DNA of 64,000 nucleotides from Siphonodentalium dalli (lineage: Eukaryota > Mollusca > Scaphopoda > Gadilida > Siphonodentaliidae): assembly GCA_032622095.1 (NCBI GenBank), contig CP136068.1, positions 158,049,465-158,113,464 of the forward strand, read 5' to 3'. A program made the translations under genes and the position numbers. The notes under the pieces are model-generated. The model did not search any database and was not told where the DNA came from. It saw only the letters and a list, made by a program, of their open reading frames with translations. Shown one piece after another: positions 6,001 to 46,054 of the stretch (its first letter is position 1; every line of letters starts with the position of its first letter).

Positions 6001-7216
6001 TCATCAGTGGGTAGCTTCAATGGTATGCATCCTGAGAGATAAACCGATTTCCTGTATTATAGTATGACCTTCATCAGTGGGTAGCTTTAAATGGTATGCA
6101 TGCTGAGAGATAAACAAATTTCCTGTATTATAGTATGACCTTCATCGGTGGGTAGCTTTAAATGGTATGCATCCTGAGAGATAAACCGATTTCCTGTATT
6201 ATAGTATGACCTTCATCAGTGGGTAGCTTTAAATGGTATGCATCATGATAGATAAACCGATTTCCTGTATTATAGTATGACCTTCATCAGTGGGTAGCTT
6301 TAAATGGTATGCATCCTGAGAGATAAACCGATTTCCTGTATTATAGTATGACCTTCATCAGTGGGTAGCTTAAATGGTATGCATCCTGAGAGATAAACCG
6401 ATTTCCTGTATTATAGTATGACCTTCATCAGTGGGTAGCTTTAAATGGTATGCATGCTGAAAGATACACCAATTTCCTGTATTATAGTATGACCTTCATC
6501 AGTGGGTAGCTTAAATGGTATGCATCCTGAGAGATAAACCGATTTCCTGTATTATAGAATGACCTTGATCAGTGGGTAGCTTAAATGGTATGCATCATGA
6601 GAGATAAACAGATTTCCTGTATTATAGTATGACCTTCATCAATGGGTAGCTTTAAATGGTATGCATCCTGAGAGATAAACAGATTTCCTGTATTATAGTA
6701 TGACCTTCATCAGTGGGTAGCTTTAAATGGTATGCATCCTGAGAGATAAACCGATTTCCTGTATTATAGTATGACCTTCATCAGTGGGTAGCTTTAAATG
6801 GTATGCATCCTGAGAGATAAACCGATTTCCTGTATTATAGTATGACCTTCATCAGTGGGTAGCTTCAATGGTATGCATCCTGAGAGATAAACCGATTTCC
6901 TGTATTATAGTATGACCTTCATCAGTGGGTAGCTTTAAATGGTATGCATCCTGAGAGATAAACCGATTTCCTGTATTATAGTATGACCTTCATCAGTGGG
7001 TAGCTTTAAATGGTATGCATCCTGAGAGATAAACCGATTTCCTGTATTATAGTATGACCTTCATCAGTGGGTAGCTTTAAATGGTATGCATCCTGAGAGA
7101 TAAGCCGATTTCCTGTATTATAGTATGACCTTCATCGGTGGGTAGCTTCAATGTTATGCATCCTGAGAGATAAACCGATTTCCTGTATTATAGTATGACC
7201 TTCATCATTGGGTAGA
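1..7216. repeat. 70/71-bp satellite array, about 102 units
   Basis: A head-to-tail array that fills the left end of the window and continues beyond it. Each unit carries TATAGTATGACCTTCATCAG, then a GGTAGCTT(T)AAATGG variant segment that makes it 70 or 71 bp, then GCATCCTGAGAGATAAACCG. Units differ by a few substitutions. Rare variants recur at fixed distances: a unit with GTGTGTAGC at 1077 and 2321, and a truncated unit with CTTCATCCTGAGAG at about 1775, 3301 and 5672. These show that blocks of 1.2, 1.5 and 2.4 kb were duplicated inside the array. The array decays at about 7205-7216. No sustained open frame is present and no link to the neighbouring gene was seen. Confidence 0.97.
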
Positions 7217-7672: not shown

Positions 7673-8041
7673 TTAACCCTTTACCCAACAAACCGGCCAA
7701 AACCGGCCAAATAAAGCTTCAACAGCCTAAAATATCTTCGGTCTGTCTCAATAGAACCATACAAATATGGATATCATTGGAACCGGCTCCTTGACCACAT
7801 TGTGATAGTTACAGTTATGCCCTGTGCCAATGCATTCTCTTATATATGCGAGTCGACCATAGATCGCCTCGCATATATAAGAGAATGCATTGGCCATTTT
7901 TTCTTACATTCTTTAACAATTTTATAATTTTTAATGTGTTAAGCCAATGCATTCTCTTATATATGCGAGGCGACCTATGGTCGACTCGCATATATAAGAG
8001 AATGCATTGGCACAGGGCCCTTCTGTTTGGTAAAGGGTTAA
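7673..8041. mobile_element. piggyBac-like MITE with TTAA target sites
   Basis: A TTAA at 7673-7676 is followed by CCCTTTACCCAACA. The right end carries TGTTTGGTAAAGGG followed by TTAA at 8038-8041. The two 14-bp ends are inverted repeats with one mismatch, and both abut TTAA, which is the piggyBac-superfamily signature (TTAA duplication, CCC-starting termini). The internal 361 bp have no transposase frame, so this is a non-autonomous miniature element. Its right two thirds consist of the palindromic unit at 7819-8018, which also occurs outside this element at 14261, so that part is probably a nested insertion. It lies in the 3' flank of the GCNT-like gene. Confidence 0.75.
7819..8018. mobile_element. 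Double-palindrome foldback element, copy 1
   Basis: The element starts with GCCCTGTGCC and ends with GGCACAGGGC. Each end is itself a near-perfect palindrome of about 68 bp (GCCAATGCATTCTCTTATAT, a CGAGTCGACC-type centre, then the complement), at 7826-7894 and 7943-8011. The whole is therefore an inverted repeat of two inverted repeats around an AT-rich core of about 48 bp containing TTCTTTAACAATTTTATAAT. The small open frames on both strands are a consequence of the symmetry and are not genes. Compare 14261-14628. Confidence 0.85.
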
Positions 8042-8467: not shown

Positions 8468-8772
8468 TTAAAATTTATTTTTAACAAAGTCTAAGTGTCT
8501 ATAGTAAGAGTCATTGAAGTTCTTGTTTCCATGGTAATACTCCCTTGTCTGATTGAAGTTCCACTCTTCTAGACAATCATAAGCATAGTGCTGTAAATCA
8601 TAGTAGAGTTTATTCACGAACAGTTTCTTGGATGTGTACAGTTTCGGAAGGTCTCTAATGCCGTTGACGCACACCGAATGAACAAGTTTTCCTCCGCAGT
8701 TGCGGTACCATTGCTTGTAGCGAGCCACGAACGGCTTTATAGAGTAATCTCCCATAGTTGTCTCCGAGAAAC
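8468..8772 (-). CDS. GCNT-like glycosyltransferase, exon 3 (C-terminus)
   Basis: Terminal exon encoding residues 363 (split codon) to 463 and the TAA stop at 8470-8468. It begins after a good 3' splice site (pyrimidine-rich tract ending GATTTTAG at 8773-8780). It carries the C-terminal GT14 signature: FVARYKQWY, then a cysteine at 388, the block HSVCVNGIRDLPKL, then KKLFVNK and DCLEEW. These correspond to vertebrate FVKW, RSVC-FGAGDL, LFANK and the last disulfide cysteine. The lysine of LFVNK (417) matches the leaving-group-binding Lys401 of mouse core 2 GlcNAcT-I. The residue matching Arg378 is His394, a notable change. Sequons at 436 (NQT) and 449 (NDS) lie in a tail slightly longer than in GCNT1. 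The internal ATG at 8755 is not the start; the frame continues upstream to the splice site. Confidence 0.9.
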
Positions 8773-9755: not shown

Positions 9756-10280
9756 TCAGGAGATCCTCGTTATTGATTTGGCTTTCTTAATAAATAGAGC
9801 AAGATTAGTAAGCGTTCGTTTGTTACCGCTATTAAATATGTCGGTTAGCTTCAATGTATTGGGTCTTTTGTAGTAATATTTCTTTATATATCTTGATCTC
9901 AGCTCTTTCAAGTTTGGGCATACTAATATGAAATGGAATTCATCTCCGATTCCCTCTCCACATAACGAGCATAATAATCTCTCGTTATATGGTGTGTTTG
10001 TCCAGGAACCAGTCTCCATCGGCAAGCGGTGGTTTCTGGACCTGAACCTCACTAATGGCATAACAATATTGTTGTTGTCAATACAGAGGAATTTAGGTCG
10101 TGTAAACTCTTTTCTAATATACCTATAAAAAGTTAATTTATTTGAACTAGTCATAGATCCATGCCAGTGTTGTGCATGTATTTATATATATGCCATGTAA
10201 GTCCGTCAGCTTTTGTTTCACAGCCGCTGAGAAAATCTTCACACTGTGGACCGACTGAGTCGTCCAGATATACAGATGTT
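9756..10280 (-). pseudogene. 3' end of a non-LTR retrotransposon ORF2, frameshifted
   Basis: The minus-strand frame 10154-9756 (132 codons) reads MTSSNKLTFYRYIRKEF, then RFRSRNHRLPMETGSW, then a zinc-ribbon-like CSLCGEGIGDEFHFILVCP. This is the C-terminal cysteine/histidine region typical of LINE ORF2 proteins of molluscs and other invertebrates. Upstream, another frame reads SVHSVKIFSAAVKQKLTD (about 10265-10205), and the original frame resumes near HWHGSM just before the first ATG. The two are joined across a TATATAA run around 10175-10200, so at least one frameshift has occurred. The reverse transcriptase and endonuclease domains are absent: a dead 5'-truncated copy in intron 2, same orientation as the host gene. 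Confidence 0.8.
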
Positions 10281-14260: not shown

Positions 14261-14628
14261 CCCTGTGCCAATGCATTCTCTTATATATGCGAGTCGACCA
14301 TAGGTCGCCTCGCATATATAAGAGAATGCATTGGCTTAACAATTTTTTACAATTTTAATAATTTTTTCTTGTATTCTTTAACAATTTTATAATTTCACCC
14401 ATACAGAGCCCCAGACAAATATGAGCAGACGACACTCTTCTATATGCTTCTATATATGTGTGGGGCTCCCTGCAGGGTAATGGATGTTTTTTATGTTATG
14501 TCCTCAAAATTGTAAGAAACATTTATTTAAAAAAAATGATAACAAATTGTTAGGCCAATGCATTCTCTTATATATGCGAGGCGACCTATGGTCGACTCGC
14601 ATATATAAGAGAATGCATTGGCACAGGG
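14261..14628. mobile_element. Double-palindrome foldback element, copy 2
   Basis: Starts CCCTGTGCCAATGC and ends GCATTGGCACAGGG, with each end a palindrome of about 70 bp as in copy 1 (7819-8018). The core keeps TTCTTTAACAATTTTATAAT but contains about 160 extra bases, including an inverted GAGCCCCA/TGGGGCTC pair (about 14407 and 14462). Unlike copy 1 it is not inside a TTAA-flanked MITE, which shows that the palindromic unit is a separate element. No clear target duplication. Confidence 0.85.
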
Positions 14629-14949: not shown

Positions 14950-15154
14950 GATATGTCCTTCATGTAAGAATACACTAACCCTAAATCTAACTCTAACCCT
15001 AACCCTAACCCTAACCCTAGTCCTAACCCTAGCCCTAACCCTAACCATAGCCCTAACCCTAACCCTAGCCCTGAACTTAACCCTAACCTGACACATATGG
15101 AGAATGGAGGGGGTGCGCGCGTGGTTTCGTATATTCTTACATGAAGGATATATC
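14950..15154. repeat. Inverted repeat enclosing an interstitial telomeric tract
   Basis: Arms 14950-14972 and 15132-15154 (GATATGTCCTTCATGTAAGA and its complement) match at 22 of 23 positions and bracket the telomere-like repeats at 14975-15088. Confidence 0.8.
14975..15088. repeat. Interstitial telomeric repeat (CCCTAA)n, degenerate
   Basis: About 19 hexamers of CTAACC(C) with variants such as CTAGCC, CTAACT and CTGAAC; the complement is TTAGGG, the usual animal telomere repeat. It is internal to a gene intron, so it is not a chromosome end. The glycine/leucine-rich open frames here are repeat artefacts. Confidence 0.9.
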
Positions 15155-16140: not shown

Positions 16141-19100
16141 GGTTTCCACACTACACCCACCTGTATAGGATCACGGAACCTTTAGACGTATTAACATGAC
16201 AGTGGTCTCCCCACTGCACTCACCAGTATAGTGTCCCGGAACCTTTAGACCTATTAACATGACAGTGGTTTCCCCTCTACACCCACATTTATAGGATCCC
16301 GGAACCTTTAGACGTATTAACATGACAGTGGATTCCCACTACACACCCACCTTTATAGGATCCCGGAACCTTTAGACGTATTAACATGACAGTGGTTTCC
16401 ACACTACACTCACCTTTATAGTATCCCAGAACCTTTAGACGTATTAACATGACAGTGGTTTCCACACTACACCCACCTTTATAGGATCCCGGAACCTTTA
16501 GACGTATTAACATGACAGTGGTTTCCCCACTACACACACCTTTATAGGACCCCGGCACCTTTAGACGTATTAACATGACAGTGGTTTCCACACTACACCC
16601 ACCTGTATAGGATCCCGGAACCTTTAGACGTATTAACATGGCAGTGGTTTCCACACTACACCCACCTTTATAGGATCCCGGAACCTTTAGACGTATTAAC
16701 ATGACAGTGGTTTCCCCACTACACCCACCTTTATAGGATCCCGGAACCTTTAGACGTATTAACATGATATTGGTTTCCCACTACACCCACCTTTATAGGT
16801 TCCCAAAACCTTTAGACGTATTAACATGACAGTGGTTTCCACACTACACCCACCTTTATAGGATCCCGGAACCTTTAGACGTATTAACATGACAGTGGTT
16901 TCCACACTACACCCACCTTTATAGGATCCCGGAACCTTTAGACGTATTAACATAATATTGGTTTCCCACTACACCCACCTTTATAGGATCCCGGAACCTT
17001 TAGACGTATTAACATGACAGTGGTTTCCCACTACACTCACCTTTATAGGATCCCGGAACCTTTAGACGTATTAACATGACAGTGGTTTCCACACTACACC
17101 CACCTTTATAGGATCCCAGAACCTTTAGACGTATTAACATGACAGTGGTTTCCCACTACACCCGCCTTTATAGGATCCCGGAACCTTTAGACGTATTAAC
17201 ATGACAGTGGTTTCCACACTACACCCACCTTTATAGGATCCCAGAACCTTTAGACGTATTAACATGACAGTGGTTTCCACACTACACCCACCTTTATAGG
17301 ATCCCGGAACCTTTAGACGTATTAACATGACAGTTGTTTCCCCACTACACTCACCTTTATAGGATCCCGGAACCTTTAGACGTATTAACATGACAGTGGT
17401 TTCCCACTTCACACACCTTTATAGGATCCCGGAACCTTTAGACGTATTAACATGACAGTGGTTTCCCACTACACCCACCTTTATAGGATCCCGGAACCTT
17501 TAGACGTATTAACATGACAGTGGTTTCCCCACAACACCCACCTTTATAGGATCCCGGAACCTTTAGACGTATTAACACGACAGTGGTTTCCCACTACACC
17601 CACCTTTATAGGATCCCGGAACCTTTAGACGTATTAACATGACAGTGGTTTCTCACTACACCCACCTTTATAGGGTCCCGGAACCTTTAGACGTATTAAC
17701 ATGACAGTGGTTTCCACACTACACCCACCTTTATAGGATCGCTGAACCTTTAGACGTATTAACATGACAGTGGTTTCCACACTACACCCACCTTTATAGG
17801 ATCCCGGAACCTTTAGACGTATTAACATGACAGTGGTTTCCCACTACACACACCTTTATAGGATCCCGGAACCTTTAGACGTATTAACATGACAGTGGTT
17901 TCCCACTACACCCGCCTTTATAGGATCCCGGAACCTTTAGACGTATTAACATGACAGTGGTTTCCAACTACACCCGCCTTTATAGGATCCCGGAACCTTT
18001 AGACGTATTAACATGACAGTGGTTTCCCACTACACCCCCTTTATAGGATCCCGGAACCTTTAGACGTATTAACATGACAGTGGTTTCTCACTACACCCGC
18101 CTTTATAGGACCCCGGAACCTTTAGACGTATTAACATGACAGTGGTTTCACAATACACCCGCCTTTATAGGATCACGGAACCTTTAGACGTATTAACATG
18201 ACAGTGGTTTCCCACTACACCCGCCTTTATAGGATCCCGGAACCTTTAGACGTATTAACATGACAGTGGTTTCTCACTACACCCGCCTTTATAGGGTCCC
18301 GGAACATTTAGACGTATTAACATGACAGTGGTTTCCCACTACATCCGCCTTTATAGGGTCCCGGAACCTTTAGACGTATTAACATGACAGTGGTTTCTCA
18401 CTACACCCACCTTTATAGGATCCCGGAACCTTTAGACGTATTAACATGACAGTGGTTTCCCACTACACCCACCTTTATAGGATCCCGGAACCTTTAGACG
18501 TATTAACATGACAGTGGTTTCCCACTACACCCACCTTTATAGGATCCCGGAACCTTTAGAGGTATTAACATGACAGTGGTTTCTCACTACACCCACCTTT
18601 ATAGGATCCCGGAAACCTTTAGAGGTATTAACATGACAGTGGTTTCCCAGTACACCCACCTTTATAGGATCCCGGAACCTTTAGAGGTATTAACATGACA
18701 GTGGTTTCCCACTACACACACCTTTATAGGATCCCGGAACCTTTAGACGTATTAACATGACAGTGGTTTCCAAACTACACCCACCTTTATAGGATCCCGG
18801 AACCTTTAGACGTATTAACATGACAGTGGTTTCCACACTACACCCACCTTTATAGGATCCCGGAACCTTTAGACGTATTAACATGGCAGTGGTTTCCCAC
18901 TACACCCGCCTTTATAGGATCCCGGAACCTTTAGACATATTAACATGAGAGTGGTTTCCCCACTACACCCACCTTTATAGGATCCCGGAACCTTTAGACG
19001 TATTAACATGACAGTGGTTTCCCCACTACACCCACCTTTATAGGATCCCGGAACCTTTAGACGTATTAACATGACAGTGGTTTCCACACTACACCCACCT

Positions 19101-22100
19101 GTATAGGATCCCGGAACCTTTAGACGTATTAACATGACAGTGGTTTCTCACTACACACACCTTTATAGGATCCCAGAACATTTAGACGTATTAACATGAC
19201 AGTGGTTTCCCCACTACACCCGCCTTTATAGGATCCCTGAACCTTTAGACGTATTAACATGACAGTGGTTTCCCACTACACCCACCTTTATAGGATCCCG
19301 GAATCTTTTGAGGTATTAACATGAAAGTGGTTTCCACACTACATCCACCTTTATAGGATCCCGGAACCTTAAGACGTATTAACATGACAGTGGTTTCACA
19401 ATACACCCGCCTTTATAGGATCCCGGAACCTTTAGACGTATTAACATGACAGTGGTTTCCCACTACACCCACCTTTATAGGATCCCGGAACCTTTAGACG
19501 CATTAACATGACAGTGGTTTCCCCACAACACCCACCTTTATAGGATCCCGGAACCTTTAGACGTATTAACATGACAGTGGTTTCCACACTACACCCGCCT
19601 TTATAGGATCCCGGAACCGTTAGACGTATTAACATGACAGTGTTTTCCACACTACACCCACCTTTATAGGATGCCGGAATATTTAGACGTATTAACATGA
19701 CAGTGGTTTCCCACTACACCCACCTTTATAGGATCCCGGAACCTTCAGACGTATTAACATGACAGTGGTTTCCACACTACACCAACCTGTATAGGATCCC
19801 GGAACCTTTAGACGTATTAACATGACAGTGGTTTCCCACTACACCCACCTTTATAGGATCCCGGAATCTTTAGACGTATTAACATGACAGTGGTTTCCCA
19901 CTACACACACCTTTATAGGATCCCGGAACCTTTAGACGTATTAACATGACAGTGGTTTCAAAACTACACCCACCTTTATAGGATCCCGGAACCTTTAGAC
20001 GTATTAACATGACAGTGGTTTCCCACTACACCCGCCTTTATAGGATCCCGGAACCTTTAGACGTATTAACATGACAGTGGTTTCCCCACTACACCCACCT
20101 TTATAGGATCCCGAAACCTTCAGACGTATTAACATGACAGTGGTTTCCACACTACACCCACCTTTATAGGATCCCAGAACCTTTAGACGTATTAACATGA
20201 CAGTGCTTTCCTACTACACACACCTTTATAGGATCCCGGAACCTTTAGACATATTAACATGACAGTGGTTTCCCCACTACACCCGCCTTTATAGGATCCC
20301 TGAACCTTTAGACGTATTAACATGACAGTGGTTTCCCACTACGCCCACCTTTATAGGATCCCGGAACCTTTAGACGTATTAACACGACAGTGGTTTCTCA
20401 CTACACCCACCTTTATAGGGTCCCGGAACCTTTAGACGTATTAACATGACAGTGGTTTCCCACTACACCCACCTTTATAGGATCCCGGAACCTTTAGACG
20501 CATTAACATGACAGTGGTTTCCCACTACACTCACCATTATAGGATCCCGGAACCTTTAGACGTATTAACATGACAGTGGTTTCCCACTACACCCACCTTT
20601 ATAGGATCCCGGAACCTTTATACGTATTAACATGATATTGGTTTCCCACTACACCCGCCTTTATAGGATCCCGGAACCTTTAGACGTATTAACATGACAG
20701 TGGTTTCCCCACCACACCCACCTTTATAGGACACGGAACCTTTAGACGTATTAACACGACAGTGGTTTCCCACTACACCCACCTTTATAGGATCCCGGAA
20801 CCTTTAGACGTATTAACATGACAGTGGTTTCCCACTACACTCACCTTTATAGGATCCCGGAACCTTTAGACGTATTAACATGACAGTGGTTTCCCACTAC
20901 ACCCACCTTTATAGGGTCCCGGAATGTTTAGACGTATTAACATGACAGTGGTTTCCCCACTACACCCACCTTTATAGGATCCCGGAACCTTTAGACGTAT
21001 TAACATGACAGTGGTTTCCCACTACACCCGCCTTTATAGGATCCCTGAACCTTTAGACGTATTAACATGACAGTGGTCTCCCACTACACCCACCTTTATA
21101 GGATCCCGGAACCTTTAGACGTATTAACATGACAGTGGTTTCCCACTACACCCGCCTTAATAGGATCCAGGAACCTTTAGACGTATTAACATGACAGTGG
21201 TTTCCCACTACACCCACCTTTATAGGATCCCGGAACTTTTAGACGTATTAACATGACAGTGGTTTCCCACTACACCCACCTTTATAGGATCCAGGAACCT
21301 TTAGACGTATTAACATGACAGTGGTTTCCCACTACACCCACCTTTATAGGATCCCGGAACCTTTAGACGTATTAACATGACAGTGGTTTCCCACTACACC
21401 CACCTTTATAGGATCCCGGAACCTTTAGACGCATTAACATGACAGTGGTTTCCCCACAACACCCACCTTTATAGGATCCCGGAACCTTTAGACGTATTAA
21501 CATGACAGTGGTTTCCACACTACACCCGCCATTATAGGATCCCGGAACCTTTAGACGTATTAACATGACAGTGGTTTCCACACTACACCCACCTTTATAG
21601 GATGCCGGAATATTTAGACGTATTAACATGACAGTGGTTTCCCACTACACCCACCTTTATAGGATCCCGGAACCTTTAGACGTATTAACATGACAGTGGT
21701 TTCCACACTACACCAACCTGTATAGGATCCCGGAACCTTTAGACGTATTAACATGACAGTGGTTTCCCACTACACCCACCTTTATAGGATCCCGGAATCT
21801 TTAGACGTATTAACATGACAGTGGTTTCCCACTACACACACCTTTATAGGATCCCGGAACCTTTAGACGTATTAACATGACAGTGGTTTCCACACTACAC
21901 CCACCTTTATAGGATCCCAGAACCTTTAGACGTATTAACATGACAGTGGTTTCCCACTACACCCGCCTTTATAGGATTCCGGAACCTTTAGACGTATTAA
22001 CATGACAGTGGTTTCCACACTACACCCACCTTTATAGGATCCCAGAACCTTTAGACGTATTAACATGACAGTAGTTTCCACACTACACCCACCTTTATAG

Positions 22101-25100
22101 GATCCCGGAACCTTTAGACGTATTAACATGACAGTTGTTTCCCCACTACACTCACCTTTATAGGATCCCGGAACCTTTAGACGTATTAACATGACAGTGG
22201 TTTCCAACTTCACACACCTTTATAGGATCCCGGAACCTTTAGACGTATTAACATGACAGTGGTTTCCCACTACACCCACCTTTATAGGATCCCGGAACCT
22301 TTAGACGTATTAACATGACAGTGGTTTCCCCACAACACCCACCTTTATAGGATCCCGGAACCTTTAGACGTATTAACACGACAGTGGTTTCCCACTACAC
22401 CCACCTTTATAGGATCCCGGAACCTTTAGACGTATTAACATGACAGTGGTTTCTCACTACACCCACCTTTATAGGGTCCCGGAACCTTTAGACGTATTAA
22501 CATGACAGTGGTTTCCACACTACACCCACCTTTATAGGATCGCTGAACCTTTAGACGTATTAACATGACAGTGGTTTCCACACTACACCCACCTTTATAG
22601 GATCCCGGAACCTTTAGACGTATTAACATGACAGTGGTTTCCCACTACACACACCTTTATAGGATCCCGGAACCTTTAGACGTATTAACATGACAGTGGT
22701 TTCCCACTACACCCGCCTTTATAGGATCCCGGAACCTTTAGACGTATTAACATGACAGTGGTTTCCAACTACACCCGCCTTTATAGGATCCCGGAACCTT
22801 TAGACGTATTAACATGACAGTGGTTTCCCACTACACCCCCTTTATAGGATCCCGGAACCTTTAGACGTATTAACATGACAGTGGTTTCTCACTACACCCG
22901 CCTTTATAGGACCCCGGAACCTTTAGACGTATTAACATGACAGTGGTTTCACAATACACCCGCCTTTATAGGATCACGGAACCTTTAGACGTATTAACAT
23001 GACAGTGGTTTCCCACTACACCCGCCTTTATAGGATCCCGGAACCTTTAGACGTATTAACATGACAGTGGTTTCTCACTACACCCGCCTTTATAGGGTCC
23101 CGGAACATTTAGACGTATTAACATGACAGTGGTTTCCCACTACATCCGCCTTTATAGGGTCCCGGAACCTTTAGACGTATTAACATGACAGTGGTTTCTC
23201 ACTACACCCACCTTTATAGGATCCCGGAACCTTTAGACGTATTAACATGACAGTGGTTTCCCACTACACCCACCTTTATAGGATCCCGGAACCTTTAGAC
23301 GTATTAACATGACAGTGGTTTCCCACTACACCCACCTTTATAGGATCCCGGAACCTTTAGAGGTATTAACATGACAGTGGTTTCTCACTACACCCACCTT
23401 TATAGGATCCCGGAACCTTTAGAGGTATTAACATGACAGTGGTTTCCCAGTACACCCACCTTTATAGGATCCCGGAACCTTTAGAAATATTAACATGACA
23501 GTGGTTTCCCACTACACACACCTTTATAGGATCCCGGAACCTTTAGACGTATTAACATGACAGTGGTTTCCAAACTACACCCACCTTTATAGGATCCCGG
23601 AACCTTTAGACGTATTAACATGACAGTGGTTTCCACACTACACCCACCTTTATAGGATCCCGGAACCTTTAGACGTATTAACATGGCAGTGGTTTCCCAC
23701 TACACCCGCCTTTATAGGATCCCGGAACCTTTAGACATATTAACATGAGAGTGGTTTCCCCACTACACCCACCTTTATAGGATCCCGGAACCTTTAGACG
23801 TATTAACATGACAGTGGTTTCCCCACTACACCCACCTTTATAGGATCCCGGAACCTTTAGACGTATTAACATGACAGTGGTTTCCACACTACACCCACCT
23901 GTATAGGATCCCGGAACCTTTAGACGTATTAACATGACAGTGGTTTCTCACTACACACACCTTTATAGGATCCCAGAACATTTAGACGTATTAACATGAC
24001 AGTGGTTTCCCCACTACACCCGCCTTTATAGGATCCCTGAACCTTTAGACGTATTAACATGACAGTGGTTTCCCACTACACCCACCTTTATAGGATCCCG
24101 GAACCTTTAGAGGTATTAACATGAAAGTGGTTTCCACACTACATCCACCTTTATAGGATCCCGGAACCTTAAGACGTATTAACATGACAGTGGTTTCACA
24201 ATACACCCGCCTTTATAGGATCCCGGAACCTTTAGACGTATTAACATGACAGTGGTTTCCCACTACACCCACCTTTATAGGATCCCGGAACCTTTAGACG
24301 CATTAACATGACAGTGGTTTCCCCACAACACCCACCTTTATAGGATCCCGGAACCTTTAGACGTATTAACATGACAGTGGTTTCCACACTACACCCGCCT
24401 TTATAGGATCCCGGAACCTTTAGACGTATTAACATGACAGTGGTTTCCACACTACACCCACCTTTATAGGATGCCGGAATATTTAGACGTATTAACATGA
24501 CAGTGGTTTCCCACTACACCCACCTTTATAGGATCCCGGAACCTTTAGACGTATTAACATGACAGTGGTTTCCACACTACACCAACCTGTATAGGATCCC
24601 GGAACCTTTAGACGTATTAACATGACAGTGGTTTCCCACTACACCCACCTTTATAGGATCCCGGAATCTTTAGACGTATTAACATGACAGTGGTTTCCCA
24701 CTACACACACCTTTATAGGATCCCGGAACCTTTAGACGTATTAACATGACAGTGGTTTCCAAACTACACCCACCTTTATAGGATCCCGGAACCTTTAGAC
24801 GTATTAACATGACAGTGGTTTCCCACTACACCCGCCTTTATAGGATCCCGGAACCTTTAGACGTATTAACATGACAGTGGTTTCCCCACTACACCCACCT
24901 TTATAGGATCCCGGAACCTTCAGACGTATTAACATGACAGTGGTTTCCACACTACACCCACCTTTATAGGATCCCAGAACCTTTAGACGTATTAACATGA
25001 CAGTGCTTTCCTACCACACACACCTTTATAGGATCCCGGAACCTTTAGACATATTAACATGACAGTGGTTTCCCCACTACACCCGCCTTTATAGGATCCC

Positions 25101-27104
25101 TGAACCTTTAGACGTATTAACATGACAGTGGTTTCCCACTACACCCACCTTTATAGGATCCCGGAACCTTTAGACGTATTAACACGACAGTGGTTTCTCA
25201 CTACACCCACCTTTATAGGGTCCCGGAACCTTTAGACGTATTAACATGACAGTGGTTTCCCACTACACCCACCTTTATAGGATCCCGGAACCTTTAGACG
25301 CATTAACATGACAGTGGTTTCCCACTACACTCACCATTATAGGATCCCGGAACCTTTAGACGTATTAACATGACAGTGGTTTCCCACTACACCCACCTTT
25401 ATAGGATCCCGGAACCTTTATACGTATTAACATGATATTGGTTTCCCACTACACCCGCCTTTATAGGATCCCGGAACCTTTAGACGTATTAACATGACAG
25501 TGGTTTCCCCACAACACCCACCTTTATAGGATCCCGGAACCTTTAGACGTATTAACACGACAGTGGTTTCCCACTACACCCACCTTTATAGGATCCCGGA
25601 ACCTTTAGACGTATTAACATGACAGTGGTTTCCCACTACACTCACCTTTATAGGATCCCGGAACCTTTAGACGTATTAACATGACAGTGGTTTCCCACTA
25701 CACCCACCTTTATAGGGTCCCGGAATGTTTAGACGTATTAACATGACAGTGGTTTCCCCACTACACCCACCTTTATAGGATCCCGGAACCTTTAGACGTA
25801 TTAACATGACAGTGGTTTCCCACTACACCCGCCTTTATAGGATCCCTGAACCTTTAGACGTATTAACATGACAGTGGTCTCCCACTACACCCACCTTTAT
25901 AAGATCCCGGAACCTTTAGACGTATTAACATGACAGTGGTCTCCCACTACACCCACCTTTATAGGATCCCGGAACCTTTAGACGTATTAACATGACAGTG
26001 GTTTCCCACTACACCCGCCTTAATAGGATCCAGGAACCTTTAGACGTATTAACATGACAGTGGTTTCCCACTACACCCACCTTTATAGGATCCCGGAACT
26101 TTTAGACGTATTAACATGACAGTGGTTTCCCACTACACCCACCTTTATAGGATCCAGGAACCTTTAGACGTATTAACATGACAGTGGTTTCCCACTACAC
26201 CCACCTTTATAGGATCCCGGAACCTTTAGACGTATTAACATGACAGTGGTTTCCCACTACACCCGCCTTTATAGGATCCAGGAACATTTAGACGTATTAA
26301 CATGACAGTGGTTTCCCACTACACCCACCTTTATAGGATCCCGGAACCTTTAGACGTATTAACATGACAGTGGTTTCCCCACTACACCCACCTTTATATG
26401 ATCCCTGAACCTTTAGACGTATTAACATGACAGTGGTTTCCCACTACACCCGCCTTTATAGGATCCCGGAACCTTTAGACGTATTAACATGACAGTGGTT
26501 TCCCACTACACTCACCTTTATAGGATCCCGGAACCTTTAGACGTATTAACATGACAGTGGTTTCCCACTACACCCACCTTTATAAGATCCCGGAACCTTT
26601 AGACATATTAACATGACAGTGGTTTCCCACTACTCCCACCTTTATAGGATCCCGGAACCTTTAGACGTATTAACATGACAGTGGTCTCCCACTACACCCA
26701 CCTTTATAGGATCCCGGAACCTTTAGACGTATTAACATGTAACATGTGGTTTCCCACTACACCCACCTTTATAGGACCCCGGAACCTTTAGACGTATTAA
26801 CATGACAGTGGTTTCCCACTACACTCACCATTGTAGGATCCCGGAACCTTTAGACGTATTAACATGACAGTGGTTTCCCACTACACCCACCTTTATAGGA
26901 ACCCGGAACGTTTAGACGTATTAACATGACAGTGGTTTCCCACTACACCCACCTTTATATGACCACGGAACCTTTAGACGTATTAACATGACAGTGTTCT
27001 CCCACTACACCCACCTTTATAGGATCCCGGAACCTTTAGACGTATTAACATGACAGTTGTCTCCCACTACACCCACCTTTATAGGATCCCGGAACCTTTA
27101 GACG
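16141..27104 (-). repeat. 62/63-bp minisatellite copying the exon 2 donor, about 175 units
   Basis: Each unit, read on the minus strand, contains CGTCTAAAGGTTCCGGG and ATCCTATAAAG, then GTGGGTGTAGTG, then a GAAACCACTGTCATGTTAAT segment. The first 28 bases (from CGTCTAAAGG to TATAAAG) are identical to the last 28 bases of exon 2, and GTGGGT is the start of intron 2. The array is therefore a tandem amplification of the exon-intron junction. The exon encodes VPGS here, a motif conserved in the protein family, so the exon copy is ancestral and the array derived. Length variants come from CCCAC (62) versus CCACAC or CCCCAC (63). Many units have GCGGGT instead of GTGGGT. A block from about 17050 recurs 4.80 kb downstream from about 21850. 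Repeated 21-residue frames such as MLIRLKVPGSYKGG are by-products. Confidence 0.97.
27075..27076 (-). promoter_or_regulatory. 5' splice site of intron 2, inside the first minisatellite unit
   Basis: The minus strand reads TCCTATAAAG then GTGGGTGTAG, a good donor. Cutting here leaves one base in phase with exon 3. The same site is present in most of the roughly 175 units downstream. Confidence 0.85.
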
Positions 27105-27300
27105 CGGATTATGGTTGAGAGTTGAGAAGAACGTTTCATCTGGTGTCGTGGTCTTCTCCACCCATTTAAGAAGATCTATAGCCGTTTGGTTGTGTAGGAC
27201 GTAGTCAACATAGCCCCGGCTAGCTACGATGTGTACAGCTCCCTTTGTTGGAGTTATTCCCCTTGGTGGTTTACCTCGATAATTCCATCGACCTACGTTT
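27077..27300 (-). CDS. GCNT-like glycosyltransferase, exon 2 (catalytic segment)
   Basis: 224-nt internal exon encoding residues 289-362 plus the split codons for Arg288 and Gly363. The reading includes NVGRWNYRGKPPRG, then KGAVHIVASRGYVDYVL, LLKWVEK, TPDETFFSTL and LKVPGSYK. These match the family blocks GSAYFV-SR-YV-YVL, W, SPDE-LWAT and VPGS. Glu343 in TPDE corresponds to the catalytic base Glu320 of mouse core 2 GlcNAcT-I. A sequon (NQT) is at 325. The segment before KGAVH is about 17 residues shorter than in vertebrate GCNT1. The exon has no upstream ATG of its own and is found only by homology and phase. Both its borders are formed by minisatellites: the last 28 bases belong to the 62/63-bp repeat and the acceptor is the last unit of the 30-bp repeat. 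Confidence 0.9.
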
Positions 27301-27302: not shown

Positions 27303-30300
27303 GGAATGGTAATGATAACGTCATACACTAATGTATCGGTAATGATAAATTCACGCACTAATGCATTGGTGATGATAAATTCATGCAATAATGCATTGGT
27401 GATGATAAAGTCATGCACTGATGCATTGATGATGATAAAGTCATGCAATAATGCATTGGTGATGATAACGTCATGCAATAATGCATTGGTAATGATAAAG
27501 TCATGCACTAATGCATTGGTGATGATAAAGTCATGCACTAATGCATTGATGATGATATAGTCATGCAATAATGCATTGGTGATAATAAAGTCATGCACTA
27601 ATGCATTCATGATGATATAGTCATGCAATAATGCATTGGTGATGATAAAGTTATGCACTAATGCATTGATGATGATATAGTCATGCACTAATGCATTGGT
27701 GATGATAAAGTCATGCACTAATGTTTTGATGATGATATAGTCATGCAATAATGCATTGGTAATGAAAAAGGCATGCACCAATGCATTGGTAATGATAAAG
27801 TCATGCACTAATGCATTGATGATGATAAAGTCATGCAATAATGCATTGGTGATGATAACGTCATGCAATAATACATTGGTAATGATAAAGTCATGCACTA
27901 ATGCATTGGTGATGATAAAGTCATGCACTAATGCATTGATGATGATATAGTCATGCAATAATGCATTGGTGATGATAAAGTCATGCACCAATGCATTGGT
28001 AATGATAACGTCATGCAATAATGCATTGGTGATGATAGCGTCATGCACTAATGCATTGGTGATGATAAAGTCATGCAATAATGCATTGGTGATGATAAGG
28101 TCATGCAATAATGAATTGGTGATGATAAAGTCATGCAATAATGCATTGTTGATGATAAAGTCATGCACTAATGCATTGATGATGATAACGTCATGCTCTA
28201 ATGCATTGGTGATGATAACGTCATGCACTAATGCATTGGTGATGATAGCGTCATGCACTAATGCATTGGTGATGATAAAGTCATTCAATGATGCATTGGT
28301 GATGATAAAGTCATGCACCAATGCATTGGTGATGATAAAGTTATGCAATAATGCATTGGTGATGATAACGTTATGCACTAATGCATTGGTGATGATAAAG
28401 TTATGCACTAATGCATTGGTGATGATAAAGTCATGCAATAATACATTGGTGATGATATAGTCATGCACTTATGCATTGGTGATGATAAAGTCATGCAATA
28501 ATGCATTGGTGATGATAGCGTCATGCACTAATGCATTGGTGATGATAAAGTCATTCAATAATGCATTGGTGATGATAAAGTCATGCACCGATGCATTGGT
28601 GAAGATAAAGTTATGCAATAACGCATTGGTGATGATAACGTTATGCACTAAAGCATTGGAGATGATAACGTTATGCACTAATGCATTGGTGATGATATAG
28701 TCATGCAATAATGCATTGGTAATGATAAAGTCATGCACTAATGCATTGATGATGACAAAGTCATGCTCTAATGCATTGATGATGATATAGTCATGCAATA
28801 ATGCATTGGTAATGATAAAGTCATGCACTAATGCATTGATGATGATATTGTCATGCACTAATGCATTGTTAATGATAAAGTAATGCAATAATGCATTGGT
28901 GATGATAAAGTCATGCAATAATGCATTGGTGATGATAACGTTATGCTCTAATGCATTGGTGATGATAAAGTCACGCACAAATGCATTGGTGATGATAACG
29001 TCATGCACTAATGCAATGGTGATGACAGCGTCATGCACTAATGCATTGGTGATGTTAAAGTCACGAACCAACGCATTGGTAATGATAACGTCATGCTCTA
29101 ATGCATTGGTGATGATAACGTCATGCACTAATGCATTGGTGATGATAGCGTCATGCACTAATGCATTGGTGATGATAACGTTATGCGCTAATGCATTGGT
29201 GATGATAAAGTCATGCAATAATGCATTGGTGATGCTAAAGTCATGCACCAATGCATTGGTGATGATAAAGTTATGCAATAATGCATTGGTGATGATAACT
29301 TTATGCACTAATGCATTGGTGATGATAACGTTATGCACTTATGCATTGGTGATGATAACGTTATGAACTAATGCATTGGTGATGATAACGTCATGTACTA
29401 ATGCATTGGAGATGATAAAGTCATGCAATAATACATTGGTGATGATATAGTCATGTACTTATGCATTGGTGATGATAAAGTCATGCAATAATGCATTGGT
29501 GATGATAACGTTATGCACTAATGCATTGGTGATGATAAAGTCATGCAATAATGCATTGGTGATGATAAAGTCATGCACCAATGCATTGGTGATGATAAAG
29601 TTATGCAATAATGCATTGGTGATGATAACGTTATGCACTAATGCATTGGTGATGATAAAGTCACGAACCAACGCATTGGTAATGATAACGTTATGCACTA
29701 AAGCATTGGTGATGATAACGTTATGCACTAATGCATTGGTGATGATAACGTTATGCACTAATGCATTGGTGATGATAACGTCATGCACTAATGCATTGGT
29801 GATGATAAAGTCACGCACTAATGCATTGGTGATGATAAAGTCATGCAATAATGCATTGGTGATGATAACGTTATGCACTAATGCATTGGTGATGATAAAG
29901 TCATGAACCAATGCATTGGTAATGATAACGTCATGCACTAATGCATTGGTGATGATAAAGTCATGCAATAATGCATTGGTGATGATAAAGTCTCGCACTA
30001 ATGCATTGGTGATGATAAAGTTATGCACTAATGCATTGGTGATGATAACGTTATGCACTAATGCATTGGTGATGATAAAGTCACGAACCAACGCATTGGT
30101 AATGATAACGTTATGCACTAAAGCATTGGTGATGATAACGTTATGCACTAATGCATTGGTGATGATAACGTTATGCACTAAAGCATTGGTGATGATAACG
30201 TTATGCACTAATGCATTGGTGATGATAAAGTCATGCAATAATGCATTGGTGATGATAACGTTATGCACTAATGCATTGGTGATGATAAAGTCATGCACTA

Positions 30301-33300
30301 ATGCATTGGTGATGATAACGTCATGCACTAATGCATTGGTGATGATAAAGTCATGCAATAATGCATTGGTGATGATAACGTTATGTACTAATGCATTGGT
30401 GATGATAACGTCATGTACTTATGCATTGGTGATGATAAAGTCATGCAATAATGCATTGGTGATGATAACGTTATGCACTAATGCATTGGTGATGATAACG
30501 TCATGCACTAATGCATTGGTGATGATAACGTCATGCACTAATGCATTGGTGATGATAAAGTCATGCAATAATGCATTGGTGATGATAAAGTCATGCAATA
30601 ATGCATTGGTGATGATAAAGTCATGCAATAATGCATTGGTGATGATAAAGTCATGCACTAATGCATTGGTGATAATAATGTTAAGCAATAATGCATTGGT
30701 TATGATAAAGTCATGCACTAATGCATTGGTGATGATAACGTTATGAACTAATGCATTGGTGATGATAACGTTATGAACTAATGCATTGGTAATGATAAAG
30801 TCATGCAATAATACATTGGTGATGATATAGTCATTACTTATGCATTGGTGATGATAACGTTATGCACTAATGCATTGGTGATGATAACGTCATGCACTAA
30901 TGCATTGGTGATGATAAAGTCATGCAATAATACATTGGTGATGATATAGTCAAGTACTTATGCATTGGTGATGATAAAGTCATGCAATAATGCATTGGTG
31001 ATGATAACGTTATGCACTAATGCATTGGTGATGATAACGTCATGCACTAATGCATTGGTGATGATAAAGTCATGCAATAATACATTGGTGATGATATAGT
31101 CATGTACTTATGCATTGGTGATGATAAAGTCATGCAATAATGCATTGGTGATGATAACGTTATGCACTAATGCATTGGTGATGATATCGTCATGCACTTA
31201 TGCAGTGGTGATGATAAATTCATGCAATAATGCATTGGTGATGATAAAGTCATGCTCTAATGCATTGATGATGATATAGTCATGCAATAATGCATTGGTA
31301 ATGATAAAGTCATGCACTAATGCATTGGTGATGATAAAGTCATGCACTAATGCATTGATGATATAGTCATGCAATAATGCATTGGTAATGATAAAGTCAT
31401 GCACTAAAGCATTGATGATGATAACGTCATGCACTAATGCATTGGTGATGATAAAGTCATGCACCAATGCATTGGTGATGATAAAGTCATGCACTAATGC
31501 ATTGGTGATGATAAAGTCATGCAATAATACATTGGTGATGATATAGTCATGTACTTATGCATTGGTGATGATAAAGTCATGCAATAACGCTTTGGTGATG
31601 ATAACGTCATGCACTAATGCAGTGGTGATGATAAATTCATGCAATAATGCATTGGTGATGATAAAGTCATGCTCTAATGCATTGATGATGATATAGTCAT
31701 GCAATAATGCATTGGTAATGATAAAGTCATGCACTAATGCATTGGTGATGATAAAGTCATGCACCAATGCAGTGGTGATGATAGCGTCATGCACTAATGC
31801 ATTGGTGATGATAGCGTCATGCACTAATGCATTGGTGATGATAACGTCATGCACTAATGCATTGGTGATGATAGCGTCATGCACTAATGCATTGGTTGTG
31901 ATAAAGTCATGCAATAATGCATTGGTGATGATAATGTCATGCACCAACGCATTGGTGATTATAAAGTTATGCAATAATGCATTGGTGATTATAAAGTTAT
32001 GCAATAATGCATTGGTTATGATAACGTTATGCACTAATGCATTGGTGATTATAACGTTATGCACTAATGCATTGGTGATGAAAACGTTATGAACTAACGC
32101 ATTGGTGATGATAACGTCATGCAATAATGCATTGGTGATTATAAAGTCATGTAATAATGCATTGGGGATGATAAAGTCATGCAATAATGCATTGGGGATG
32201 ATAAAGTCATGCAATAATGCATTGGTGATGATAAAGTCATGCAATAATGCATTGGTGATGATAAAGTCATGCACCAATGCATTGGTGATGATAAAGTTAT
32301 GCAATAATGCATTGGTGATGATAACGTCATGCACTAATGCATTGGTGATGATAAAGTCATGCAATAATGCATTGGTGATGATAAAGTCATGCAATAATGC
32401 ATTGGTGATGATAAAGTCATGAAATAATGCATTGGTGATGATAACGTTATGCACTAATGCATTGGTGATGATAAAGTTATGCACTAATGCATTGGTGATG
32501 ATAAAGTCATGCACTAATGCATTGGTGATGATAAAGTCATGCACTAATGCATTGGTGATGATAACGTTATGCACTAATGCATTGGTGATGATAAAGTTAT
32601 GCAATAATGCATTGGTGATGATAAAGTTATGCAATAATGCATTGGTGATGATAAAGTCATGCAATAATGCATTGGTGATGATAAAGTCATGCAATAATGC
32701 ATTGGTGATGATAAAGTCATGCAATAATGCATTGGTGATGATAAAGTTATGCACTAATGCATTGGTGATGATAAAGTTATGCAATAATGCATTGGTGATG
32801 ATAATGTCATGCAATAATACATTGGTGATGATAACGTTATGAACCAATGCATTGGTGATGATAACGTTATGCACTAATGCATTGGTGATGATAACGTTAT
32901 GCACTAATGCATTGGTGATGATAGCGTCATGCACTAATGCATTGGTGATGATAGCGTCATGCACTAATGCATTGGTGATGATAAAGTCATTCAATAATGC
33001 ATTGGTGATGATAACGTTATGCACTAATGCATTGGTGATGATAAAGTCATTTAATAATGCATTGGTTATGATAAAGTCATGCACCAATGCATTGGTGATG
33101 ATAAAGTTATGCAATAATGCATTGGTGATGATAACGTTATGCACTAATGCATTGGTGATGATAACGTTATGCACTAATGCATTGGTGATGATAACGTTAT
33201 GCACTAATGCATTGGTGATGATAACGTCATGCAATAATACATTGGTGATGATAACGTCATGCACTAATGCAGTGGTGATGATAAAGTCATGCAATAATAC

Positions 33301-34030
33301 ATTGGTGATGATATAGTCATGCACTTATGCATTGGTGATGATAAAGTCATGCAATAATGCATTGGTGATGATAACGTCATGCACTGATGCAGTGGTGATG
33401 ATAAAGTCATGCAATAATGCATTGGTAATGATAAAGTCATGCAATAATGCATTGGTGATGACAAAGTTATGCACTAATGCATTGATGATGATATAGTCAT
33501 GCAATAATGCATTGGTAATGATAAAGTTATGCACTAATGCATTGATGATGATATTGTCATGCACTAATGCATTGTTAATGATAAAGTCATGCACCAATGC
33601 ATTGTTGATGATAAAGTTATGCAATAATGCTTTGGTGATGATAACGTTATGCACTAATGCATTGGTGATTATAACGTTATGCGCTAATGCATTGGTAATG
33701 ATAACGTTATGCACTAATGCATTGGTGATGATAGCGTCATGCTCTAATGCATTGGTGATGTTAAAGTCACGCACTAATGCATTGGTGATGATAAAGTCAT
33801 GAACCAATGCATTGGTAATGATAGCGTCATGCACTAATGCATTGGTGATGATAACGTCATGCACTAATGCATTGGTGATGATAAAGTCATGCACCAATGC
33901 ATTGGTGATGATAAAGTTATGCAATAATGCATTGGTGATGATAACGTTATGCCATAATGCATTGGTGATGATAAAGTCATGCACTAAGGCATTGTTAACG
34001 ATGACGTCACGCACTCATGCGATGGTAATG
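27303..34030. repeat. 30-bp minisatellite, about 224 units
   Basis: Unit ATGCATTGGTGATGATAAAG followed by TCATGCAATA or TCATGCACTA; common variants are AACG for AAAG, TTATG for TCATG and GCG for AAA. A few units are shortened (near 30829 and 31345). Local higher-order blocks of 120-150 bp marked by GTACTTATGC recur at 30836-31110. Because 30 is divisible by three, frames stay open on both strands for up to 589 codons (ALVHDFIITN-type and CTNALVMIKS-type decapeptides); these are not genes. The array fills most of intron 1 and its right-hand (low-coordinate) end forms the exon 2 acceptor region. Confidence 0.97.
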
Positions 34031-34040
34031 TCGGCAGTAA

Positions 34041-34394
34041 GTGGACCGCATATCTGATGATAAATTATAAGTCTGGGGTCCGTACATATGATGATAAATT
34101 ATATGTCTGGGTCCGTACATATGATGATAAATTATAAGTCTGGGGCCCGTACATCTCATGATAAATTATAAGTCTGGGGTCCGTACATCTTATGATAAAT
34201 TATAAGTCTGGGGCCCGACATCTGATGATAAATTATATGCCTGGAGCCCGCCATCTGATGATAAATTATATGTCTGGGGTCCGTACATCTCATGATAAAT
34301 TATATGTCTGGAGCCCGCCATCTGATGATAAATTATATGTCTGGGGTTCGTACATCTGATGATAAATTATATGTCTGGGGTATGTACATTTGAT
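34041..34394. repeat. 34-bp minisatellite, about 10 units
   Basis: Unit GATGATAAATTATATGTCTG followed by GGGTCCGTACATCT, moderately diverged; contiguous with the 30-bp array and inside intron 1. Confidence 0.92.
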
Positions 34395-34536
34395 AGCTCA
34401 GTCAGAGAACTTAATATTAAGAGCGTTTTCATTTTAACTATCATGAAACTCAACAATCGTTGCATGTCTTATATACATGTATTGTGATGGGTATATAGAC
34501 ACAACAGTGATTGAAGTGGTCGGTCCAGCGTATATA

Positions 34537-34666
34537 TAGCGATGGGACATAACTCTGTCTTGGAGTTTGTGATCAGCCCAGCGTAGCGAGTAGACATAAC
34601 TCTGCCTTGCAATTTGTGATCAGACAGGCATAGCGAGGGAACATAACTCTATCTTGCAGATCAGTA
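34537..34666. repeat. 47-bp tandem repeat next to the exon 1 donor, 2.8 units
   Basis: Units start TAGCGATGGGACATAACTCT (34537), TAGCGAGTAGACATAACTCT (34584) and TAGCGAGGGAACATAACTCT (34631). The last, shortened unit ends about 10 nt from the 5' splice site at 34675. It is the third tandem array in this gene that abuts a splice junction. Confidence 0.9.
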
Positions 34667-34675: not shown

Positions 34676-35538
34676 CTGTTTCTGTTCCCCTCAATATCAT
34701 TAGCTCCATTATAAGCTTTGAGGATTTTCGCCAGCTCGTAATTGGTTTTCAGCGGGAATTCTTGCCCCGTCAAGTTGATGAAGTATTTCCAGTTTCTCCC
34801 GCGTTTCCATAACTCTCTCATACAAATAATCTCCGGCAACAAGACAGAAAACTTTCCCCAGATTACAGAAACCGAGCGTGGCGCTAGAAAAACGTTCTCG
34901 AAACATCCAGAAATGAATGATAATTCTGACTTGAAAGTCTTTGATGTTCTTTTCTCAACGTGAATACAGTATAAATGGTTTGGTCTGTATATAGCTCGGA
35001 GTAACCGTTCGACCTGAACAATGTCTTTGTAGACAAGCAAGGAAAACGCTATTGGCATATCCCTCTCCTCTGATGATAAGTTGTCCGTTATGTATCCCCT
35101 CGATTTAACAAAATCTGAGCACGACTGAGAATGAAGCACACGCGTAGTTGATTTGTTGATTGCTACGGTTGTTGCTTTTTCATGTTTCAGTGTATTATTC
35201 ACTAACAACATGTATGATTTCCTCGTCTCTTTCTCATCTCCCTTGAATAGCAGACGACAGTCAACGCCATTGACCTTTCGATCGGTCATTTGCAGAGCGC
35301 GGTTGACAACAGATCTACCTTCGTGTATGAACTTAAATGAATCTGGAACGTTTTTATCCTTGCGTATTTTTGCATTACCCCATGGCATTGTTGGCATCAT
35401 AAACAATAAACAAGAGCACGTGATCATGAGATATAAACAAACAAGCAGACGACACCTGTACTGTCGAATCATCTTGATTAACTGCATGAAATATGAATAT
35501 TCCATGGTCTCACGAAGAAGATCATTGGCAGCATCCAT
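34676..35538 (-). CDS. GCNT-like beta-1,6-GlcNAc-transferase, exon 1 (N-terminus)
   Basis: Encodes residues 1-287 plus two bases of codon 288 of a Golgi type II membrane enzyme expected to transfer GlcNAc from UDP-GlcNAc in beta-1,6 linkage onto mucin-type O-glycans or related acceptors. A single signal anchor (LLVCLYLMITCSCLLFMM, about 31-48) is followed by a stem with sequons at 114 and 128. The catalytic domain starts near 140: MPIAFSLLVYKD, RLLRAIYRPNHLYCIHVEK, GCFENVFLAPRSVSV, then NWKYFINLTGQEFPLKTN. These align with vertebrate FPIAYSIVVH, YCIHVD, NVF and FPIKTN. Thr257 sits where GCNT1 has its free cysteine Cys217. Two starts are possible: ATG at 35538 and ATG at 35505 (residue 12) in the much better context ACCATGG, giving 463 or 452 residues. 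A possible 5' UTR splice acceptor (CTGATTTACAG) ends at 35580. Exact acceptor specificity cannot be told. Confidence 0.9.
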
Positions 35539-35766
35539 GGACGGTGCGATATTGACGATTTACACTGCGTCATTTACATCTGTAAATCAGAATATATCGA
35601 AATAAATTCAAAACCGCGTTACCGAGAAATTAAATCTCACATCGTTAAACCAGACCAGCCTCCACAAAGAGCTAAATTAAGTTTTAAGAAGATCAAAAAG
35701 ATGTCAGAAATGTAGGCTGGTATCGATTTTAATGGATCAACCCATTAGTTGGGTCAACATAATATA

Positions 35767-43632: not shown

Positions 43633-44124
43633 AGAATCAATCATACATGGTGCATGGCAAATATTAGAATCAATCATACATGGTGCATGGCAAATATTAG
43701 AATCAATCATACATGATGTATGGCAAATATTAGAATAAATCATACATGATGCATGGCAAATATTAGAATCAATCATACATGATGTATGGCAAATATTAGA
43801 ATCAATCATACATGGTGCATGGCAAATATTAGAATCAACCATACATGATGTATGGCAAATATTATAATCAATCATACATGATGTATGGCAAATATTATAA
43901 TCAATCATACATGATGTATGGCAAATATTATAATCAATCATACATGGTGCATGGCAAATATTAGAATCAATCATACATGATGTATGGCAAATATTAGAAT
44001 CAATCATACATGATGTATGGTAAATATTAGAATCAATCATACATGGTGCATGGCAAATATTAGAATCAATCATACATGATGTATGGCAAATATTAGAATC
44101 AATCATTCAATGGCAAATATTAGT
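43633..44124. repeat. 33-bp minisatellite, copy A, about 15 units
   Basis: Unit CAATCATACATGATGTATGG followed by CAAATATTAGAAT; each unit contains the near-palindrome CATACATGATGTATG, or CATACATGGTGCATG in the alternative type. Divisible by three, hence an 11-residue repeated frame (MIDSNICHTSC) that is not a gene. It is followed at 44111-44289 by 179 bp that are also found after copy B. Confidence 0.93.
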
Positions 44125-45402: not shown

Positions 45403-46054
45403 TTAGGGGTGGGGTCAAGTTTATGCCCACAACGCATTTTCAGAGAAATATAATTGGCAAATATTAGAATAAATCATACATGGTGCATGGCAAATATTAG
45501 AATCAATCATACATGATGTATGGCAAATATTAGAATCAATCATACATGGTGCATGGCAAATATTAGAATCAACCATACATGATGTATGGCAAATATTATA
45601 ATCAATCATACATAATGTATGGCAAATATTAGAATAAATCATACATGGTGCATGGCAAATATTAGAATCAATCATACATGATGTATGGCAAATATTAGAA
45701 TCAATCATACATGATGTATGGCAAATATTAGAATAAATCATACATGGTGCATGACAAATATTAGAATCAATCATACATGATGTATGGCAAATATTAGAAT
45801 CAATCATACAATGGCAAATATTAGTTGCGCTCTTTTTCATCTTTCCCTGGAGAGATATGGCACGTCGGTTATTTTAGATAAGATCTGCGTTTTTTAACGT
45901 GACCGAGCTAACCTTTAGTACAACTTCTTGCAAGTAAAGGTCGAAAAGTTGGTGTTCATACGTTTAGTATGGCACGGGTTAGCAACTTGCCATATGTTAG
46001 GGGTGGGGTCAAGTTTATGCCCACAACGCATTTTCAGAGAAATATAATTGGCAA
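45403..46054. repeat. 33-bp minisatellite copy B bracketed by 58-bp direct repeats
   Basis: Perfect 58-bp direct repeats lie at 45403-45460 and 45997-46054 (starting TTAGGGGTGGGGTCAAG, ending ATAATTGGCAA). Between them are about 11 units of the 33-bp minisatellite (45456-45826) and the 179-bp downstream sequence (45812-45990) that also follows copy A at 44111-44289. The arrangement looks like a duplicated segment of the copy A locus inserted with a long target duplication or by break repair. Confidence 0.9.

Follow-up and report, generated by a model that had tools for sequence, protein, structure and literature searches.

An outsize mirage-type minisatellite, probably grown from the end of exon 2 of a glycosyltransferase-like gene, in the scaphopod Siphonodentalium dalli

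Minisatellite-like duplications of exon-intron boundaries, termed "mirages", have been described in amphioxus in globin genes, Adh3, and other loci; either border of an exon can be affected, the data suggest that regular splicing is undisturbed, and the copies could act as cryptic sites (PMC3087553). In lancelets, mirage-type repeats are also present in TnC and PGBD5, with splicing reported intact (PMC3902484). In human IFI6 (G1P3, 6-16), two downstream repeat units serve as donors and three messenger RNAs result (PMC4526556, citing Turri et al. 1995), and in human segmental duplications, novel patterns of splicing can arise from tandem repeats located at exon-intron boundaries (PMC2812944). 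Here we describe a tandem array with a 62/63-base-pair (bp) unit in intron 2 of a putative glycosyltransferase gene of Siphonodentalium dalli. The window, i.e., the whole stretch of DNA analyzed, comprises 64,000 nucleotides (nt) of the forward strand (assembly GCA_032622095.1, contig CP136068.1, positions 158,049,465 to 158,113,464) and contains no N; positions below are those of the window, and the gene and the arrays within it are read on the minus strand. Our preferred reading, which we consider probable, is that the array is an outsize, mostly neutral minisatellite of the mirage type, born from the end of exon 2, with normal splicing likely intact.

Tandem Repeats Finder (TRF) places the array at positions 16141-27104, with a period of 62/125, 175.8 copies, and 94% matches, and wraparound alignment in the gene direction, from 27104 to 16141, resolves it into 176 units, the final one partial. 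The array begins inside the end of exon 2 and runs downstream within intron 2. In particular, unit 0 (27043-27104) comprises the last 28 nt of exon 2, CGTCTAAAGGTTCCGGGATCCTATAAAG, followed by the first 34 nt of intron 2, GTGGGTGTAGTGGGAGACAACTGTCATGTTAATA, and matches the array consensus at 28 of 28 exon bases and 32 of 34 intron bases. By this assignment, the tandem unit would span an exon-intron boundary, as the unit of a mirage does. Unit length is 62 nt in 108 units, 63 nt in 63, 61 nt in two, 64 nt in one, and 65 nt in one, with an end piece of 48 nt. The 175 full units have a mean identity to the consensus of 97.4% (insertions ignored); 28 are exact across the 62 columns, and 15 are exact once insertions count. 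All 28 exon bases are intact in 89 of the 176 units, and exact codons for VPGS are present in 120. A first-pass annotation of this DNA had proposed an array of about 175 units of 62/63 bp, about 11 kilobases (kb) long, in intron 2, with the end of exon 2 as its first unit, and both proposals are borne out here; the extent that it gave, 16141 to 27300, is right at its start, but its upper limit of 27300 is where exon 2 begins, and the array ends at 27104.

The minus-strand gene strongly resembles a Core-2/I-branching (GCNT-type) glycosyltransferase, with exon borders predicted from phase, splice consensus, and homology. Specifically, exon 1 (34676-35559) is an open frame from 35559 that contains 12 in-frame ATGs, with the ATG at 35505 taken as the working start, and it ends at the donor CAG/GTACAG (slash, exon border); exon 2 (27077-27300, 224 nt) lies between the acceptor CCATTCCAG/A and the donor AAAG/GTGGGT and encodes a segment ending in NHNPRLKVPGSYK(G); and exon 3 (8468-8772) follows the acceptor GATTTTAG/GT, has TAA at its end, and encodes the C-terminal glycosyltransferase part. 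The three exons are compatible in phase and, once joined, give a frame that stays open until the TAA. The joined protein matches the Pfam family Branch (PF02485) over the whole domain (E 9.2e-37; profile positions 1-247 of 250). Among PDB chains, it matches 3otk_A, a beta-1,6-N-acetylglucosaminyltransferase (8e-58), and 2gak_A (1.5e-57), both of which we take to be mouse C2GnT1. The part encoded by exon 3 aligns as the C-terminal region of the solved enzymes, and the KVPGS that closes exon 2 is placed opposite EVPGS of 3otk_A/2gak_A, VPGS facing VPGS in the same frame and register.

This alignment strongly suggests that the array originated from the end of exon 2, and not the reverse, because the exon copy encodes a family motif, VPGS, that aligns with the VPGS of a solved family member. 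The first-pass annotation had likewise held that the exon copy encodes a conserved GCNT-family VPGS, that exon 2 joins exon 3 in phase, and that the array grew from the exon-intron junction, and it is upheld on each count, with the exon as the likely source by the motif argument. If, conversely, the array already existed in the intron or had an outside source, and one of its units later replaced the end of exon 2, a 28-of-28 match of the exon bases to the consensus would also be expected, through conversion by the array. We consider that order of events highly improbable: the exon copy encodes the family motif in the right place and frame, and no copy of the 12-base VPGS core, GTTCCGGGATCC, is present elsewhere in the window at up to one mismatch, all 162 matches being inside the array (100 shuffles: mean 0.12, maximum 2).

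In the exon-first scenario, a tandem duplication reaching from 28 bases upstream of the exon-2 end to 34 bases into intron 2 would have copied a working donor, and unequal exchange or slippage would have expanded the product to about 175 units. A later step (or the assembly) would have doubled a stretch of about 4.4 kb. The first unit would remain the true end of the exon, held by coding selection, and the remaining units would be intron, mostly neutral and subject to concerted turnover.

The donor dinucleotide is GT in 137 of the 176 units, including all of the first ten, GC in 37, and GG in 2; as in a mirage, many, not all, of the copies keep the splice signal. The nine-base donor of unit 0, AAGGTGGGT, is present in 100 units, unit 0 included. 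We calculated U1 pairing as a simple duplex energy with the U1 5' end, which is not a splicing model. The true exon-2 donor has an energy of -11.8, and the exon-1 donor has an energy of -7.2. Pairing is at least as strong as that of the true donor in 111 of the 176 units (unit 0 included) and stronger in 11, and none of the 2182 GTs on the gene strand outside 1-7215, 16141-27104, and 27307-34394 pairs with U1 as strongly as the true donor. The units thereby resemble donors, one of them being the true donor, much as in IFI6. The earlier picture of a row of near-identical donors after exon 2 holds in part: those 111 units are as good as the real donor in U1 pairing, but 39 units have GC or GG, and the donor columns are more variable than the rest of the unit. 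Competition among donors along the array is plausible.

Variation within the unit peaks at the donor T (22%; C in 37 of the 175 full units). Variants per column amount to 5.5% in the donor versus 2.2% elsewhere, and to 6.1% versus 3.2% when only the 76 distinct aligned units are counted; three of the 62 nine-column windows, the donor's own included, vary as much as the donor. Selection preserving the array donors was considered and set aside, as the column counts show no sign of it. The variability argues against selection keeping the donors; it would also fit a mutable site, or selection that favors weaker decoys, the latter being disfavored because the first ten units are all GT. We conclude with moderate confidence that the units beyond unit 0 evolve mostly neutrally.

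U1 protects transcripts from premature cleavage; in principle, the approximately 110 strong donors, accompanied by few acceptors and no poly(A) signals, could offer U1 a binding platform and guard the 18-kb intron, or could form a poison switch, with transcripts spliced at a downstream donor going to decay. In favor of such a role are the 111 units (unit 0 included) whose U1 pairing equals or exceeds that of the real donor; the poly(A) signals, with no AATAAA and no ATTAAA in the 10.9-kb array versus 14 in the remaining 7.4 kb of intron 2; the early stop codon, which begins at 29 nt in the intron; and the ability of intronic repeats to change splicing in human TERT (PMC3948165) and ABCA7 (PMC5954066). 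However, a repeat that is free of these hexamers is free of them in nearly every unit, so that their absence is one observation and not 175; a 71-bp array outside the gene also lacks both hexamers, and the 30-bp array of intron 1 has one. Together with the higher variability of the donor columns, which is as expected without selection, this makes a regulatory function very unlikely in our view.

Read-through past exon 2 adds GGCSGRQLSC and then reaches a stop codon beginning 29 nt into the intron, short of the unit-1 donor, which lies at 62 nt; therefore each downstream donor would give one identical truncated protein without the exon-3 part. Returning to the reading of a mostly neutral array, splicing would most likely occur at the unit-0 donor, which is transcribed first, is nearest the exon-2 acceptor, and gives the shortest exon (224 nt). 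We have moderate confidence that this is the donor used, a prediction from order and distance: it is favored because it is made first and is closest to the exon-2 acceptor. The downstream donors would have at best poor acceptors nearby, for which reason new exons are unlikely, and would, if used, give an early-stop transcript. Specifically, the 15 bases preceding the 178 YAG sites in the array contain 4-7 pyrimidines at 170 sites, 9 at seven, and 10 at one, with a longest pyrimidine run of 5 and with no site reaching 11 of 15. The real acceptors have 11 (exon 2) and 13 (exon 3) pyrimidines of 15.

Several points weigh against this reading. First, the acceptor of exon 2 is weak too, with 11 pyrimidines in 15 bases and no run longer than 4; when any AG in the array is counted, 2 of 540 reach 11 of 15. 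Pseudo-exons inside the array were considered and judged unlikely, the best YAG having 10 pyrimidines, one below the exon-2 acceptor; the judgment goes no further than "unlikely" because that acceptor has just 11, a value that those two AGs match. Second, units 1, 2, and 3 carry AAGGTGGGT, just as unit 0 does; with the closest downstream donors equal to the true one in strength, they may well be used to some extent. Third, the exon-first origin would be read from the VPGS motif instead of from an outgroup. Fourth, there is the precedent of IFI6. The IFI6 minisatellite is reportedly located at the end of exon 2 and has a short unit, and isoforms from its downstream donors are said to read on into the next exon; at the present locus the in-frame stop at 29 nt prevents downstream donors from giving isoforms of that type. 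If downstream donors were used at a sizeable rate, as downstream units are in IFI6 (PMC4526556), a ladder of exon-2 isoforms would result, with exons of 286, 348, and 410 nt from units 1, 2, and 3. We regard such a ladder as unlikely, since all of its isoforms would stop 29 nt into the intron and since undisturbed splicing is reported for amphioxus mirages (PMC3087553, PMC3902484).

Comparison of units with one another reveals a large internal duplication (17007-26232). Over lags 1-119, the unit-to-unit distance drops sharply solely at lag 77 (1.68; next lowest, 3.58; overall, 3.91), and units 14-84 (26232-21808) differ from units 92-161 (21369-17007) at 17 of 4299 gap-free columns, with 190 gap columns and with 18 consecutive identical units. 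Because of the drop at lag 77 and the near-identity of the two runs of units, we conclude that about 4.4 kb of the array underwent a late doubling, via recombination or via an assembly that joined two haplotypes. The duplication, seen in one sequence only, hints at instability of length between haplotypes or cells. The distance to the consensus is approximately level along the array (1.5 to 2.6 in bins of ten units; 2.1 in the exon-side bin), and the far end diverges, with scores of 1, 4, 3, 3, 9, and 18 for units 170-175, of which unit 175 is partial.

The array could thus be real and its length a product of the assembly, with two haplotypes placed end to end, a possibility that is compatible with our preferred reading. 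Allelic copies could show the observed identity, including the 18 consecutive identical units; a true recent duplication would look alike, however, and units 0-13 have no partner at lag 77. We rate an assembly origin of the length as somewhat unlikely.

Exon 2 is walled in by arrays on both sides. Upstream, intron 1 consists mostly of a 30-bp array of 224 full units (27307-34020 by TRF; the alignment begins at 34030), the last unit of which stops 6 nt short of exon 2 and provides the sequence immediately upstream of the exon-2 acceptor. Of the final 24 nt of intron 1, 21 agree with a stretch of the 30-bp array (100 shuffles: mean best 13.4, maximum 17). The region just upstream of the exon-2 acceptor is 30-bp array sequence; copying of the AG is not implied, because 18 of those 24 bases are already in the last unit of the array. 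TRF detects two further repeats in intron 1: a 34-bp array of 10 copies (34052-34394) and a 47-bp tandem repeat of 2.6 copies (34536-34658) that starts about 17 nt past the exon-1 donor. For three of the four splice junctions, an array edge is no more than 30 nt away, a result equaled in 20 of 20,000 circular shifts, in a test that was devised after the result had been seen, with 26 arrays hand-merged from 40 TRF rows and with a 30-nt limit that admits a case at 27.5 nt.

Exon 2 might accordingly be pictured as an island between two arrays that were both born from its own splice borders, 224 units on the acceptor side and 176 on the donor side, with the donor-side array serving as a U1 platform that protects the long intron. 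We consider this combined picture quite unlikely. If two border-born arrays were nonetheless present, the precursor messenger RNA (pre-mRNA) would present a single genuine 3' splice site and a single genuine 5' splice site beside hundreds of decayed or intact copies, and would offer a natural test of how the spliceosome picks the first donor.

Other features of the window are as follows. At 14975-15088 in intron 2, the telomere-like hexamer CTAACC (CCCTAA rotated) is repeated in 19 imperfect copies. A palindromic element, ccaatgcattctcttatatatgcgag..., is visible on inspection twice downstream of exon 3 (about 7830-8010) and once in intron 2 (14557-14625), and is perhaps a small inverted-repeat transposon. 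A minus-strand open frame at 9756-10181 has no Pfam match at E 0.01; by eye it resembles what we take to be the C-terminal end of a non-long-terminal-repeat (non-LTR) retrotransposon protein. Downstream of the gene, a 71-bp array of about 100 copies extends from the first base of the window (1-7215; TRF), and two arrays at 43633-44106 and 45455-45810 have a common 33-bp unit, each being open in one minus-strand frame (MIDSNICHTSC-like repeats). Among the matches listed in blastn and tblastn searches of the window for other copies of the gene or its exons, there were the gene itself, short array matches, and one weak tblastn match (36969-36856; 34% over 38 columns, E 0.075); the exon-2 blastn results exclude short matches at the exon end, which are expected to be array units. 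None of ten open reading frames picked from the 41 listed has a Pfam family at E 0.01, one of the ten being the exon-3 frame alone, which is part of the gene. A scan of the window found no structured RNA at gathering score and no transfer RNA.

Under our preferred reading, the locus is an extreme case of a known but little-studied structure. If the gene is expressed, it offers a direct test of whether, among donors of equal strength, order and distance are sufficient to determine the choice, because the true donor faces 110 competitors whose U1 pairing is as good as its own. The structure also fits the duplication of boundaries as a source of intron growth, in addition to the intron gain proposed for amphioxus globins (PMC3087553).

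Comparison with known systems places the array closest to the amphioxus mirages. With those of Adh3, BflGb6, BflGb9, TnC, and PGBD5 (PMC3087553, PMC3902484), it shares units that combine exon and intron bases, many of them with a splice signal, and concerted turnover. It differs in size, the amphioxus BflGb6 haplotypes having 6 and 3 units and mirage units measuring 10-160 bp (PMC3087553), versus 176 units over 11 kb here, and in that normal splicing is reported for amphioxus mirages (PMC3087553) and predicted for the present locus. With IFI6 it shares minisatellite units that are repeated donors, one of which is the true donor; unlike in IFI6, where downstream donors are used, each downstream donor here brings a stop codon. 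Variable boundary repeats in human duplications average 30 bp x 4 (PMC2812944), in contrast to 62/63 bp x 176 here. The variable number tandem repeat (VNTR) in TERT intron 6 is likewise an intronic array, but lies more than 1 kb from exon-intron junctions (PMC3948165), and the ABCA7 VNTR, which alters splicing, is likewise an array within an intron (PMC5954066). A literature search that met no array of this size had most subscription papers outside its reach, including the original Adh3 mirage and IFI6 papers. The first-pass annotation knew of no described case of this scale, and the scale does exceed that of the cases in the literature examined, but the kind is already described, in amphioxus mirages and IFI6; what stands out is the scale of the array, together with the walling of exon 2 on both sides.

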